DNA from: Nautiliaceae bacterium | GTDB lineage: Bacteria > Campylobacterota > Campylobacteria > Campylobacterales > Nautiliaceae | Reading direction: 5' to 3' | Length of the DNA stretch: 45,037 nt | Assembly (NCBI GenBank): GCA_027062285.1 | Contig: JAMOTL010000005.1 | Location: 1-45,037, forward strand | Part shown: piece after piece, positions 5,440 to 11,087 of the stretch | Layout: every line of letters starts with the position of its first letter | How positions within the stretch are numbered: position 1 is the stretch's first letter | Translations under genes and position numbers: made by a program | Notes under the pieces: generated by a model | Database searches by the model: none | The model's input: only the letters and a program-made list of their open reading frames with translations | What the model was told of the DNA's origin: nothing

Positions 5440-5469
5440 TTTGTGCCTTTTAATGTTTGTTAAATTTTT

Positions 5470-5477
5470 GTTATACT
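5470..5477. promoter_or_regulatory. Interleaved divergent -10 elements (ABC-F gene / TonB receptor)
   Basis: On the plus strand an extended -10 (TGt TATACT, hexamer 5472-5477) faces the TonB-receptor gene. On the minus strand TATAAC (5470-5475) faces the ABC-F gene. The hexamers share four bases, so the two promoters should compete for polymerase. No clear -35 on either side. Confidence 0.5.
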
Positions 5478-5497
5478 TTCGTTTAAAAAGAGTGGCG

Positions 5498-7564
5498 ATG
5501 AAAAAAATTTTTTTGGTAATTGTATCAATATTTTTGTTGTTTGCCGCAGAAAAAGAAGATTTTTTAAAAACCTTAAATGAAGTGACCGAAATAGCGACTA
5601 TTTCAAAGCTGAATATAGATAAAACCCCATCAAACGTAGAAGTAATCAGACGTGATTTTATTTTAAAAAGCGGGGCAAAAACCCTTCTTGATATATTAAA
5701 ATATTTACCGGGAATCGAAATATCCATGTCTTCAAGTGGTAAAAAAGAATTAATTATCCGTGGAAATAAATCTACTTACAGAGATAAAATAAAATTTATG
5801 ATTAACGGCGTTTCGGTTACGAATAATCTTTATTCCAATCAATTTTATTATTATAATTTTCCAGCCGTATTAATAAAAAGAATTGAATTTACTAAAACTC
5901 CCGATTCGGTGCTTTACGGTGGAAATGCTTTTTTGGGAGTGATTAACATCATTACCGTAGATTCTTTAAATAATGATTTCGTTGATTTTTACGTTTCAAC
6001 AAAACAAGAATTTTCAGGCGCTTTTTTTAAAAAATTTAAACAGGATGAATTATTAATTGACGCTCATTACAGTGTTTCTCATCCACATTTAAAATCTCCT
6101 ACGAGTTATTTGGGTGATATTAAAAAAATGGATGTTATGCCTTATAGAAGCAATGTGGATGTAAGCAGTTTTGAGAAAAATTTCGGAATAGGAATTAAAT
6201 ACGATAAAGAGGAATCAAATATAAAATACCGTCTTGAATATTATGAAAAAGGGAATTTTTTCGGTATTTCCAGACTTACACCTCTAAAACATGATAAAAA
6301 AATTAGATTTTGGCATCAGTATTTGAATTTTCATAATTCAAAATATCTCAAATATAACCTAAAAAACTGCTTTGATGCTGGGATTAAATATTATATCTGG
6401 GATGGAGAATTTAGAACGTTTCCTTATGATTTTAACGAAACAATTGATAATAATCCAGATAACGACATTATAAGCGGAGCAAAAATAAACGAAATAGAAT
6501 ATTATATTAGAAATATAATACATAATGATTTAGATCATCACAATTTTGTTTATTTATTAGAAGCGAAATACGCCAAGCCTTTTGATTATTATTATTTACA
6601 GTATGTTCCCTCTATGAATGAAACACAAAACGCATTTAATCTCGGTCCGAACGGCAAACATTTAAAAGGGAAAAACAACGTTTTAAAAGAGGGTATAAAC
6701 AGAAAGACTTTTTCATCGGCATTTCAGGACTTAATAGTCTTTAATGAAAATTTTTCTGCCGTCGGTGGAATAAGATTTGATTCTTACAGTGATTTCGGAC
6801 GTAAACTTTCATATAAGCTCGGTTCGGTATTTTCAAAAAATGATTACACATTAAAAATACTTTTTAATAACGCTTTTAGAGTTCCGTCTTGGGTGGAACT
6901 TTATGCTAAAAGCGCAAGTGATTTTAACGGAAATGAAAAATTAAAGCCTGAAACAATAGATATGCTTGAAGTCGTCGGAATAAAAAAAATCAAAAATGAC
7001 AGATTGAAATTAGTGTTTTTTTACGGTAAAAACAAAAATTATATCGGAAGAAAAATCGATTTAAAAAGCGGAAAAAAAATATATGATAATCTGGGAACTT
7101 ATTATATCAGGGGTATTGAGGCATCATATCTGAGAAGAAATGAAGATTATAGATTCGATATATCTTATTCTTTGAATAAAAATTATTATGATTTTGAAAA
7201 TAAAATAGTAGGATTTAATATTTACGACTGGCCGGGCAATAGAGAAAAACTGATAAAATCACATTTTGTTTATAACTTTGGTAAAGACAGATCCGTGTTT
7301 TTCGGATTGATTTACGGCAGTGAGATTAAAACTCCGGCTGTTATTAAAAATATTCCTTCATATTTTAGCATTAATACAAATTACCGTTTTAAAAGTCACG
7401 GTTTTTATTTTACAATAGGAGCGGATAATATCACGAATCATAAAAATTATTATTGGGTGGATCCGAGCGATTTAATTTTTGATAGATATTTCTTCGAATT
7501 TGAACATGCGCGTATTTATGCTGTGGGAAGAAAAATATTTTTTAATATTTATAAAGAATGGTAA
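5498..7564 (+). CDS. TonB-dependent outer-membrane receptor
   Basis: 688-residue outer-membrane receptor. It has a signal peptide (residues 1-17, MKKIFLVIVSIFLLFAA) and a candidate TonB box near TEIATIS (30-36). The plug domain (about 43-155) contains LLDILKYLPGIEI, KELIIRGN and VLYGGNAFLGVINIIT; the rest is a beta-barrel rich in aromatic, alternating strands. Such receptors take up large ligands (siderophores, cobalamin, others) using TonB energy, or sense them. I cannot name the ligand. The longer open frame starts at 5408, but the ATG at 5498 begins the signal peptide. The next gene starts within its stop codon (TAATG), and the context (YfiR-like protein, then GGDEF-EAL) suggests a sensory rather than purely nutritional job. 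No ExbB, ExbD or TonB genes are nearby. Confidence 0.88.
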   Translation: MKKIFLVIVSIFLLFAAEKEDFLKTLNEVTEIATISKLNIDKTPSNVEVIRRDFILKSGAKTLLDILKYLPGIEISMSSSGKKELIIRGNKSTYRDKIKFMINGVSVTNNLYSNQFYYYNFPAVLIKRIEFTKTPDSVLYGGNAFLGVINIITVDSLNNDFVDFYVSTKQEFSGAFFKKFKQDELLIDAHYSVSHPHLKSPTSYLGDIKKMDVMPYRSNVDVSSFEKNFGIGIKYDKEESNIKYRLEYYEKGNFFGISRLTPLKHDKKIRFWHQYLNFHNSKYLKYNLKNCFDAGIKYYIWDGEFRTFPYDFNETIDNNPDNDIISGAKINEIEYYIRNIIHNDLDHHNFVYLLEAKYAKPFDYYYLQYVPSMNETQNAFNLGPNGKHLKGKNNVLKEGINRKTFSSAFQDLIVFNENFSAVGGIRFDSYSDFGRKLSYKLGSVFSKNDYTLKILFNNAFRVPSWVELYAKSASDFNGNEKLKPETIDMLEVVGIKKIKNDRLKLVFFYGKNKNYIGRKIDLKSGKKIYDNLGTYYIRGIEASYLRRNEDYRFDISYSLNKNYYDFENKIVGFNIYDWPGNREKLIKSHFVYNFGKDRSVFFGLIYGSEIKTPAVIKNIPSYFSINTNYRFKSHGFYFTIGADNITNHKNYYWVDPSDLIFDRYFFEFEHARIYAVGRKIFFNIYKEW

Positions 7565-8052
7565 TGAAAAAAGTACTGTTGATTTTATTTGTTTTAATGA
7601 CCAGTTTATGGGGAAATATAGAAGAATTACTTTATATAGAATCAAAACTGTATCCAAAAATAATAATGCTTGATAAATCGGTAAATAAGAAAGAAAAAAT
7701 AGTTTTTGATATTCTTTATGATGAAGAAAATTATCATATTGCAAAAGTAATGTCCCAATTGCTTCGAAAAAACGGTGTTGATACAAGGTTGGACAAAATA
7801 CCTCGATATTGTAAAAATGCTGATGCGTATATTTTGGTAACAAAAAATGTATCCGAAAGATTTATAAATAATTTACTTCGTTCTAAAAAACTTATATTCA
7901 GCGTCTATCCTGATATGATAAAAAACAGTATGATAAGCGTCTATATCGGTATAAAAGTAAAGCCTATAATAAATCCTTCTCTCATAAAAAAAGGATATAT
8001 AAAACTAAATCCTATACTTTTAAAGGTGGCAAAAATATATGAAGAGGATTAA
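7564..8052 (+). CDS. YfiR-like (DUF4154) periplasmic protein
   Basis: 162-residue protein with a signal peptide (MKKVLLILFVLMTSLWG) and no other membrane segment. The overall pattern fits YfiR/DUF4154: a central alpha/beta region (KIVFDILYDEE, then ADAYILV), then KLIFSVYPD and a C-terminal V-x-P-I-I-N-P ... LNPILLKVAKIY motif resembling the family's IN...LLxLA ending. YfiR in Pseudomonas is a periplasmic repressor of the membrane diguanylate cyclase YfiN. Only one cysteine is present, so the disulfide control described for YfiR cannot apply here. The start ATG shares one base with the receptor's stop, and the 3' end overlaps the GGDEF-EAL gene by 14 bp. The family call is by pattern, not alignment. 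Confidence 0.55.
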   Translation: MKKVLLILFVLMTSLWGNIEELLYIESKLYPKIIMLDKSVNKKEKIVFDILYDEENYHIAKVMSQLLRKNGVDTRLDKIPRYCKNADAYILVTKNVSERFINNLLRSKKLIFSVYPDMIKNSMISVYIGIKVKPIINPSLIKKGYIKLNPILLKVAKIYEED

Positions 8053-10345
8053 TTCTTTAAAAAATTTGATGAATCTTGTTTTTAGCATTGTGTTGTTAAG
8101 TTTTTTACTTTATATTGTAGTTGATTTATATAATATTTCCAATACTTTAAAAGAACTTCAAAAAGAAAGAATTTCTCTTGCCATAAAAAATGAAAAAGAT
8201 ACGTTTGTTACGCTTTTGAGATTGGGTTTTATTGATGAGTTAAAAGAAGAAATCAATAAAATTATTACTTTTTCAAAAGATATTGAAAATATAGAAATAA
8301 AATGGAAAGATAAAAAATTTAATTATTCAAATATTAAAACCGCCAATAAAATAATAATTCCACTTGATAAAGGAAAAATAACGGTTTATTATCAAAATAA
8401 CCTTATTGATAAATTTTTTGATAAATATATTTTTAGATTTGTACTTTATGCCTCGGTTTTTATTCCTTCAATGATTATATTATTCCTTTTTATAAGAAAA
8501 AAAATTTTGAAACTAAATGTCCTAGCAAAAAAATTAGAGAGTATTAATTTTAAAAAAATTTCATCATTTGAAAAAATAGATGGCAGTTATGAAATAGAAA
8601 ATATTACTAATGCCGTAAATAAACTTTTAAAACAGGTAAATCGTTTTTATGAAAATCAAAAAAATTTTATTTATAGTGTCGTGAAGTATAAAAATCAGCT
8701 TGAAACGGCTCAGAAAATTTCTGAAATGTTTAGTTGGGAATATGATTGCCAGGAAAATATTTTTAATATCATGGGTAAAACATTAAAGATGTTTAATTTA
8801 AAAAGTAGTTATACTTTAAATGATTTTTTGGAACATATCCTGCCTCAAGACAGAAAAATTTTTGAAGAAAAAATTAAAAGGCTATGTAAAAACGGAGAAG
8901 AATTTGAGGTTGTTCACGGTTTTAGAAACAAAGAAAATAAGTTGTTTTATTTCAAAAGTGTAGGTAAATTGAAAAAAAACAAAATAATAGGTGTCAGTTT
9001 AAACGTAACCGATGAAATTAAAAGACAGCAAAAAATAGAGTATCTCGCGTATCATGACTCTTTGACTTCATTACCTAATAGAGCTTATCTTAAAGATGAA
9101 TTTTTAAGGTTGATGAATCTGGGAAAAAGAGATAATAAAAAATTAGCCGTTCTTTATTTGGATTTGGATAATTTTAAAATGATTAATGATACATTGGGAC
9201 ATGAAAACGGTGATAAACTTTTGATTACAATCGCCCAGAGACTTAAAAAAGTACTTAGAAAAAGCGATTTTATTTCCAGAATCGGAGGAGATGAATTTAT
9301 TATTCTTCTTTATGGAATTCAAGATAAAAAAAACATTAAAGATATTATTAATAAGCTTGTTCAATCCCTAACAGAGCCTATAGTAATAAAACAGACACCG
9401 ATTTATCCGACTTTTAGTATCGGATGTGCTATATATCCTGATGATTCCGAAAATATGGAAGAGTTGTTAAAATATGCTGACATTGCGATGTATCACGCTA
9501 AAAATAATGGGAAAAATAGCTGTGAATTTATTAATGAAAAACTAAAAAAACAAATTAACGACTATTATAATATTATAAATGACTTAAAAGAAGCGTTAAA
9601 AAAAGATGATGAATTAGTATTATTTTTTCAACCGAAAATAGATATAAAAAATAAAAAAATCAGCGGTGCCGAAGCTTTAATAAGATGGTATCATCCTCAA
9701 AAAGGCTTTTTAACTCCATTTCATTTTATATCTTACGCAGAAAAAAGCAATTTAATAACCCAAATTGATAGATATGTATTAAAAAAATCGTTTGAAATCT
9801 TGAAAAGATGGCAGGAAAACGGATTTAAAGATTTGATATTGGCAATAAATATTTCTCCTAATGAGTTTAAACAAAATGATTTTATAGATAACCTAAAGAT
9901 GCTTTTAAATAAATATAAAATCGATCCTTCCAAGTTGGAAATAGAAATTACCGAAACTATAAGTATGCAAAATATGTCTTATACTGTTTCAGTTCTTGAA
10001 GAAATTAAAAAATTAGGGTTCAAAATTGCCATAGATGATTTCGGAACCGGTTATTCTTCATTAAATTATTTAAAAAAATTACCTTTTGATACTTTGAAAA
10101 TAGATCAGGTGTTTATAAAAGATTTAGACACACATACGGATGATTTAATAATTACCGAAATGATAGTACAAATTGCAAAAGTTCTAAAAAAACAAACTGT
10201 TGCCGAAGGAGTCGAAACTAAAAAAATTTTAGAAATTGTAAAAGAATTGGAAATTGATGTTGTTCAGGGATATTATTTTTCCAAACCTTTAAATGAAAGT
10301 GATTTTGAAAATTATGTTAAAAATTTTAAGTATTCTGAAAAATAA
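8039..10345 (+). CDS. Membrane PAS-GGDEF-EAL c-di-GMP enzyme
   Basis: 768 residues. TM1 is about 11-32, a periplasmic segment of roughly 100 residues follows, TM2 is about 131-152, then a HAMP-like linker (153-205) and a PAS-like domain (about 220-326). GGDEF domain: RIGGDEF with GGDEF at 416-420 and an intact product-inhibition I-site RKSD at 407-410. EAL domain: EAL at 545-547, NISPNEF near 604, IEITET near 635, IDDFGTGYSSL near 665 and TVAEGVE near 720. Both active sites look complete, so the protein can in principle make and degrade c-di-GMP. It is the third gene of a translationally coupled chain behind the TonB receptor and the YfiR-like protein, the expected input partners by analogy with YfiBNR. 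Its 3' end overlaps convergent ribF by 20 bp. Confidence 0.93.
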   Translation: MKRINSLKNLMNLVFSIVLLSFLLYIVVDLYNISNTLKELQKERISLAIKNEKDTFVTLLRLGFIDELKEEINKIITFSKDIENIEIKWKDKKFNYSNIKTANKIIIPLDKGKITVYYQNNLIDKFFDKYIFRFVLYASVFIPSMIILFLFIRKKILKLNVLAKKLESINFKKISSFEKIDGSYEIENITNAVNKLLKQVNRFYENQKNFIYSVVKYKNQLETAQKISEMFSWEYDCQENIFNIMGKTLKMFNLKSSYTLNDFLEHILPQDRKIFEEKIKRLCKNGEEFEVVHGFRNKENKLFYFKSVGKLKKNKIIGVSLNVTDEIKRQQKIEYLAYHDSLTSLPNRAYLKDEFLRLMNLGKRDNKKLAVLYLDLDNFKMINDTLGHENGDKLLITIAQRLKKVLRKSDFISRIGGDEFIILLYGIQDKKNIKDIINKLVQSLTEPIVIKQTPIYPTFSIGCAIYPDDSENMEELLKYADIAMYHAKNNGKNSCEFINEKLKKQINDYYNIINDLKEALKKDDELVLFFQPKIDIKNKKISGAEALIRWYHPQKGFLTPFHFISYAEKSNLITQIDRYVLKKSFEILKRWQENGFKDLILAINISPNEFKQNDFIDNLKMLLNKYKIDPSKLEIEITETISMQNMSYTVSVLEEIKKLGFKIAIDDFGTGYSSLNYLKKLPFDTLKIDQVFIKDLDTHTDDLIITEMIVQIAKVLKKQTVAEGVETKKILEIVKELEIDVVQGYYFSKPLNESDFENYVKNFKYSEK

Positions 10346-11087
10346 AATTTTTTACTATTTTTATATCCATATTTATTTGCTTTTTTAGTTCTCTAAGCGA
10401 ATCAAACTTTTTATTTTCTCTTAAAAAATCAAAAAATTCTATTTGGATAAATTTATTTACCCGGAAATTTTCTAGAATATGAGTTTCTATTGAAAAATTG
10501 TTATCTGTGGAGCGGATTCCTATAAATGTAAGTGACTTAAAACCGTTTGTTTTTGTTATATATACGCCGCTTTTGGGAATTGTATAAGGTTTGAATAATT
10601 CTATATTTATTGTAGAGACAAGTTCTTTTGAGCCAAGTCCTTGTCCTTTGATTTGGATTCCTTTAATTTTGTAATTTTTCCCTAAAAATTTATTTGCGGT
10701 TTTTATTTTGCCTTCTTTTATAAAATTTCTTATTGTTTTAGCATGAACTCCGATACCGTTGATTTTTATTTCTTTTATTACTTCCACATAAAAATATTTT
10801 TTTAATTCTTCTATTCCTCCGCTTCTATTTTTTCCGAATCTAAAATCTTCTCCTATTATAATTTTAGTAGCATTTAGTTTTTTTAAATACTTAATAAATT
10901 CTTCAGGCGTTTGATGTTTGATTTTTTCTAATATCAGAAAATCAAAAGGTTTTTTAATATATTCAAGCCTGTCAAATCCGGGAGTTAAGGAACTGCCTTT
11001 TTCGATAATTATAATTTTATCGGCTTTTTTTATAAGTTCTTGATGAGCTATATGAACTCCATCAAAGCCTCCGATTGCTATTTTCAT
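10326..11087 (-). CDS. ribF: Riboflavin kinase / FAD synthetase (RibF), short form
   Basis: 253 residues, shorter than the usual ~300. The N-terminal FMN adenylyltransferase domain shows the nucleotide-binding motif GGFDGVHIAH (6-15) and GEDFRFGKNRSGG (79-91). The C-terminal flavokinase region is divergent: the usual PTAN metal/ATP motif reads STIN (158-161), which keeps T and N, and the surrounding segments are short. FAD synthesis is well supported; riboflavin kinase activity is uncertain. It starts with an ATGA overlap on the uvrC stop codon and is the last gene of the minus-strand DUF721-uvrC-ribF run, ending inside the GGDEF-EAL gene on the other strand. Confidence 0.85.
   Translation of the reverse strand: MKIAIGGFDGVHIAHQELIKKADKIIIIEKGSSLTPGFDRLEYIKKPFDFLILEKIKHQTPEEFIKYLKKLNATKIIIGEDFRFGKNRSGGIEELKKYFYVEVIKEIKINGIGVHAKTIRNFIKEGKIKTANKFLGKNYKIKGIQIKGQGLGSKELVSTINIELFKPYTIPKSGVYITKTNGFKSLTFIGIRSTDNNFSIETHILENFRVNKFIQIEFFDFLRENKKFDSLRELKKQINMDIKIVKNFIFQNT

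Follow-up and report, generated by a model that had tools for sequence, protein, structure and literature searches.

Outer-membrane receptors of the FecA/FpvA type, the TonB-dependent transducers, signal across the periplasm. In the YfiBNR system of Pseudomonas aeruginosa (yfiR-dgcN-yfiB in Escherichia coli), the periplasmic protein YfiR acts by protein contact with the outer-membrane component YfiB, and crystal structures indicate that it binds YfiB, and probably the membrane enzyme YfiN too, through a single conserved face (PMC4655355). Malone et al. (2012; PMC3375315) described a modular YfiNR core that includes distant pairs without YfiB and with GGDEF-EAL or histidine-kinase outputs; their survey left open what such systems sense at the outer membrane. 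Few inputs to cyclic di-GMP (c-di-GMP) signalling from beyond the outer membrane are known, and neither YfiR nor TonB figures in a 2022 review of the sensory inputs to it. Here we analyse three genes in a 45,037-nucleotide stretch of DNA from a Nautiliaceae bacterium (contig JAMOTL010000005.1; the window), which encode a TonB-type outer-membrane receptor, a YfiR-like periplasmic protein and an inner-membrane GGDEF-EAL transducer. A first-pass annotation, made from the sequence alone, had proposed that the receptor stands in for YfiB. The YfiR identity of the middle protein and the conservation of the triplet support this proposal, and on balance we judge the cassette to be a YfiBNR-type trans-envelope signalling unit with a receptor in YfiB's place.

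The likeness to YfiBNR extends to all three components: a periplasmic protein of the YfiR fold, a c-di-GMP enzyme in the membrane whose periplasmic domain is CHASE8-like, and a third component in the outer membrane. The genes of both systems overlap, by 11 base pairs for yfiR and dgcN of E. coli. In the window, the three open reading frames lie on the forward strand (Table 1) with the close spacing described in the first-pass annotation. At the TAATG junction, base 7564 ends the TAA of the receptor gene and begins the following ATG, and the middle gene overlaps the transducer gene by 14 base pairs (8039-8052). Unlike in YfiBNR, however, the third component is a TonB-type receptor rather than an OmpA-like lipoprotein, and the output is a GGDEF-EAL protein with a PAS-like domain, whereas YfiN is a HAMP-GGDEF protein. 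The cassette likewise agrees with Malone et al. in having a YfiR-YfiN core without YfiB and with varied outputs, but that survey named no outer-membrane partner and does not contain the word TonB. Since it had already established the modular core, the YfiR family itself is known and it is the link to a receptor that is new; we found no description of a receptor-YfiR-transducer arrangement in the open-licence literature on YfiR/TonB, DUF4154 or CHASE8.

Profile and structural comparisons identify the middle protein as a divergent YfiR, as the first-pass annotation had supposed. Searches with Pfam and NCBIfam gave no DUF4154 (PF13689) match to the protein itself, which rules out direct identification by these models, and its kinship therefore had to be established from profile and structural evidence. 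When its homologues were searched with PF13689, about a dozen exceeded the curated cut-off, including one that is 44% identical (26.2 bits). Furthermore, a profile restricted to homologues that escape recognition by Pfam aligned end to end with the classical DUF4154 profile in hhalign (probability 97.6, E 3.6e-12). The DUF4154 assignment of 7564-8052 thus fails as a direct match and stands through the protein's relatives. An AlphaFold (AF2) model of the protein is confident, with a predicted local distance difference test score (pLDDT) of 93.2 and a predicted template modelling score of 0.85, and it resembles YfiR crystal structures. In a Foldseek search of this model against the PDB, 16 of the 20 top matches were structures of P. 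aeruginosa YfiR, either by itself or bound to YfiB (among them 4zhu, 4yn9, 4xjy and 5eb1; E 6e-6 to 2e-4, template modelling score up to 0.63). A sequence profile of the middle protein searched against the PDB returned weak, unrelated matches and no YfiR, so that YfiR was found there by fold comparison only. The best structural match of all comes from Rhodothermus marinus, a protein entered in the PDB under the name 'substrate-binding protein' (6k1x / 5z6v), which may belong to the YfiR-like superfamily.

The middle protein has a single cysteine (C83), most of its closest relatives have none, and the cysteine pairs of P. aeruginosa YfiR (C71/C110 and C145/C152) are absent from it. The disulphide switch of YfiR is therefore missing, in line with the first-pass annotation. 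With E 0.01 as the limit, up to 54 of the 397 genomes of the window's phylum contain homologues of the middle protein; the poorest matches are probably due to chance.

We then took 76 distinct YfiR-like genes of this phylum with 5-kilobase flanks as a census of linkage. A TonB-type receptor gene lies within two genes of 72 of them, and in 58 of these cases the two genes are immediate neighbours on the same strand, mostly with next to no gap or overlap between them; among the 196 genes lying more than three genes away in the same loci, none encodes a receptor. The association is far beyond chance, and the conservation of the triplet expected in relatives is borne out. The third component, classified approximately by motifs, is most often a GGDEF protein, followed by a histidine kinase and then a GGDEF-EAL protein. 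The receptor gene may come first or last, and this variable order speaks against the simple inheritance of one old operon. YfiB is absent from the window operon, and the cassette loci of the phylum yielded a single weak match to it (locus L127).

In five loci, DUF4154 is fused to a transducer through a long segment and one transmembrane helix (Table 1; for L112 and L113 the assignment comes from a genome search and the sequence, not from a whole-protein Pfam scan). In all five, a gene for a TonB-type receptor adjoins the fusion gene. Such natural fusions are strong evidence, at the level of sequence, that the YfiR-like protein serves as the input of the transducer, and they favour the predicted contact between the two. 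The SpoIIE phosphatase and hybrid histidine kinase fusions represent outputs beyond c-di-GMP. In the three DUF4154-GGDEF fusions, a long repetitive segment, probably a coiled coil, lies between the YfiR domain and the transmembrane helix, and a CHASE8 domain is apparently lacking.

The architecture given for the window transducer in the first-pass annotation was also recovered. Two predicted transmembrane helices, at residues 10-28 and 134-152, bracket a periplasmic loop of some 100 residues, and Pfam matches GGDEF (3.4e-53) and EAL (6.1e-75). Read by eye, the I-site and the GGDEF motif are both preserved in RKSD-FISRI-GGDEF; the EAL motifs (EALIR, NIS, EITE, DDFGTGYSS, KID, AEGVET and QGY) are intact as well. 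Before the GGDEF domain, Pfam finds no HAMP but a weak PAS_3 instead, below threshold (21.5 bits, cut-off 25.6). The YfiN-type periplasmic domain CHASE8 is detected by Pfam in several cassette partners, and when hhalign was run with the periplasmic part only, the profile of the window-type domain aligned with these partners at probability 94.0 (E 1.4e-7, score 42.9), while 30 column shuffles used as a control scored at most 11.0. In the same alignment, TLLRLGFIDELKEEI falls on the AAVAFxDxxAAEETL motif of the CHASE8 partners (TLLRLGFIDEL against AAVAFxDxxAAEE), which corresponds to the AAVVF motif of YfiN, the proposed YfiR-binding site (PMC3375315). AlphaFold models the sensor region as two transmembrane helices around a helix-helix-four-strand domain (pLDDT 88.7). 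The window sensor domain is thus CHASE8/YfiN-like, a distant but significant relationship. A large subgroup of transducers in other loci (partners of about 645 residues, for example in L039, L047, L049, L054 and L069) carries SGDEF or AGDEF; as these replace the GGDEF motif, the proteins may be altered cyclases or receptors and not ordinary enzymes.

Similar operons, which the first-pass annotation thought might exist elsewhere, reach well beyond the phylum, into Alpha- and Betaproteobacteria. Plasmids of two Sphingobium strains and of Indioceanicola carry receptor, YfiR and histidine kinase/response regulator genes in this order, and a Caballeronia plasmid carries receptor, YfiR and an EAL protein. 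A Sphingobium query recovered 15 genome loci of Alphaproteobacteria and Burkholderiales, 13 of them with the order receptor-YfiR-kinase; a scan of genome contigs with one protein of the window's phylum gave no matches. The classical order of YfiR, cyclase and an OmpA-type gene, without a receptor, is seen in E. coli and on an Acinetobacter plasmid. For this reason the third component would seem to be either a receptor or YfiB, in a sampling that is not unbiased.

The cassette also comes and goes as one unit, as is evident from related genomes with an empty site. In the window (region 5440-11087) it lies between ABC-F and ribF, flanked by divergent and convergent housekeeping genes (an ABC-F gene at one end, ribF and uvrC at the other), and relatives without it have the order ABC-F, ribF and (uvrC). 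In a second genome of the family (L236) it lies in the same orientation between ribF and uvrC; the two positions around ribF reflect either two insertions or a local rearrangement. Nothing else moves together with the cassette, and the closest relatives of all three genes come largely from the same loci (L031-L036).

Turning to the receptor, Pfam finds no STN signalling domain at its N-terminus. It shares its fold with FecA and FpvA but differs from them in this respect, and its cassette uses a YfiR-like protein and a GGDEF-EAL enzyme instead of an anti-sigma and a sigma factor. The Pfam barrel model misses the window receptor and matches receptors of other cassettes. The window genome, which is 98.7% complete, encodes a single Plug protein, namely the receptor of the cassette, and the same is true of the second family member with a cassette. 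TonB_C was found in none of ten genomes of the family (the window genome and nine relatives) and in all 16 other cassette-bearing genomes; TonB_2 was found in none of four family members. The sole ExbB/ExbD-like pair belongs to a TolQ-TolR-TolA-TolB-Pal operon. The first-pass annotation had allowed for TonB pulling at the outer membrane, but as no TonB protein was found in the genome or the family, a further point of difference from the FecA/FpvA type, this is improbable here and the least likely part of that model. A very divergent TonB, or cross-talk from Tol, might conceivably still act; it is plausible, and our preferred reading, that the cassette receptor is dedicated to signalling and works independently of TonB. 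Both family members that we inspected have an intact Tol-Pal.

Receptors of window-type cassettes share an N-terminal segment, xxFLxTLNExxEIATxTKLNIDxxPS, at the position where ordinary receptors of the same genomes carry a TonB-box-like IxVSASKT. A profile of this segment built without the window gave the window receptor 38.3 bits; with all receptors of more than 35% identity removed, it scored 23.4 bits versus at most 4.5 for 20 non-cassette receptors. In strict cross-validation, only 33 of 52 cassette receptors scored above the controls, and the idea that the segment is a universal hallmark of cassette receptors was rejected in its strong form, because subclades differ. Judged from these profiles, the segment is a candidate contact for the YfiR-like protein, and a subclade marker rather than functional proof.

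Based on these data we propose the following mechanism. An external ligand would bind the receptor and alter the exposure of its periplasmic face, comprising the plug and the N-terminal segment, which would then recruit or release the YfiR-like protein. This protein would otherwise sit on the CHASE8-like domain of the GGDEF-EAL protein and would set the balance between synthesis and breakdown of c-di-GMP by the enzyme. The single conserved face with which YfiR binds YfiB, and probably YfiN as well, would offer a simple mechanism, competition of receptor and transducer for that face. We infer physical contacts among the three proteins, the direction in which the signal runs, an effect of the YfiR-like protein that is repressing and not activating, a ligand for the receptor, and signalling that uses no TonB energy.

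It is unlikely, in our view, that the receptor is instead a gate and that the YfiR-like protein binds an admitted ligand before signalling to the CHASE8-like domain. Such a relay would fit the deposition of the best Foldseek match as a substrate-binding protein, the further matches to solute-binding half-domains, and the placement of CHASE8 in the CACHE-like clan, whose domains are mostly extracellular and sensory (PMC8846402); active uptake normally needs TonB, however, which was not found here, and P. aeruginosa YfiR is known to work through contact with a protein, YfiB. We give still less credence to a reversed logic, in which the YfiR-like/GGDEF-EAL pair senses an envelope cue alone and the receptor is a co-regulated output or operon cargo. 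Although the fusions show that a YfiR domain can be a built-in transducer input, and YfiNR pairs without YfiB exist (PMC3375315), receptors adjoin even the fused forms, as well as histidine-kinase and SpoIIE versions that lie outside c-di-GMP signalling, and an uptake role is doubtful for the sole receptor of a genome in which TonB was not detected. That unrelated envelope genes were merely inherited together is very improbable and strongly disfavoured by the tight linkage, gene overlaps, swapped gene orders and fusions, by recurrence in other classes, and by presence or absence as an exact unit.

Several observations nevertheless weigh against a receptor-controlled YfiBNR-type unit. Alignments place P or L in this branch at the position of YfiR F162, which is thought to contact YfiN, and the window sensor domain on its own has no Pfam match and no fold match in the PDB. 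Three YfiR-like loci have no receptor within 5 kilobases (in a fourth, the receptor is visible in a six-frame search only). The enzyme could act on balance as either a cyclase or a phosphodiesterase, and with 32 GGDEF matches in the window genome its output may or may not be specific.

The receptor-controlled YfiBNR-type unit may also be one instance of a widespread kind in which TonB-type receptors, via YfiR, control interchangeable transducers (cyclases, cyclase-phosphodiesterases, histidine kinases and SpoIIE phosphatases), the receptor in the window's family being TonB-independent and kept in a lineage without detectable TonB; we advance this broader reading tentatively. If the receptor is the outer-membrane component so far missing from YfiR systems without YfiB, many genes annotated as 'YfiR family protein' and 'TonB-dependent receptor' would acquire a shared function that can be put to the test, and certain TonB-type receptors would act as sensors, not as transporters. 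The lineage without detectable TonB would be a clean setting for asking whether such a receptor can signal without TonB.

Table 1. Features of the receptor-YfiR-transducer cassette in the window, and YfiR-transducer fusions at other loci
Feature	Position	Strand	Basis and remarks
Outer-membrane receptor, TonB-dependent type	5498..7564	+	688 residues; Pfam Plug 1.6e-18; no STN
Receptor N-terminal segment before/into plug	5555..5629	+	Residues 20-44; starts around EDFLKTLNEVTEIATISKLN; profile scores; putative function
Plug domain	5618..5941	+	Pfam
Divergent YfiR-like periplasmic protein	7564..8052	+	162 residues; signal peptide; single Cys83; hhalign/AF2/Foldseek
Inner-membrane GGDEF-EAL transducer	8039..10345	+	768 residues
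Periplasmic sensor domain, distantly CHASE8/YfiN-like	8132..8431	+	hhalign of periplasmic part
PAS-like cytoplasmic domain	8747..8971	+	PAS_3 below Pfam cut-off
GGDEF domain	9047..9517	+	Intact GGDEF and RxxD I-site
EAL domain	9578..10288	+	Catalytic residues intact
DUF4154-GGDEF fusion	L111:4926-6449		
DUF4154-GGDEF fusion	L112:4926-6425		
DUF4154-GGDEF fusion	L113:2248-3789		
DUF4154-SpoIIE fusion	L114:3567-5480	-	
DUF4154-HisKA-HATPase-REC fusion	L115:2961-5513	-	

An Rfam search gave no match, and a promoter scan yielded no useful signal on the AT-rich background.

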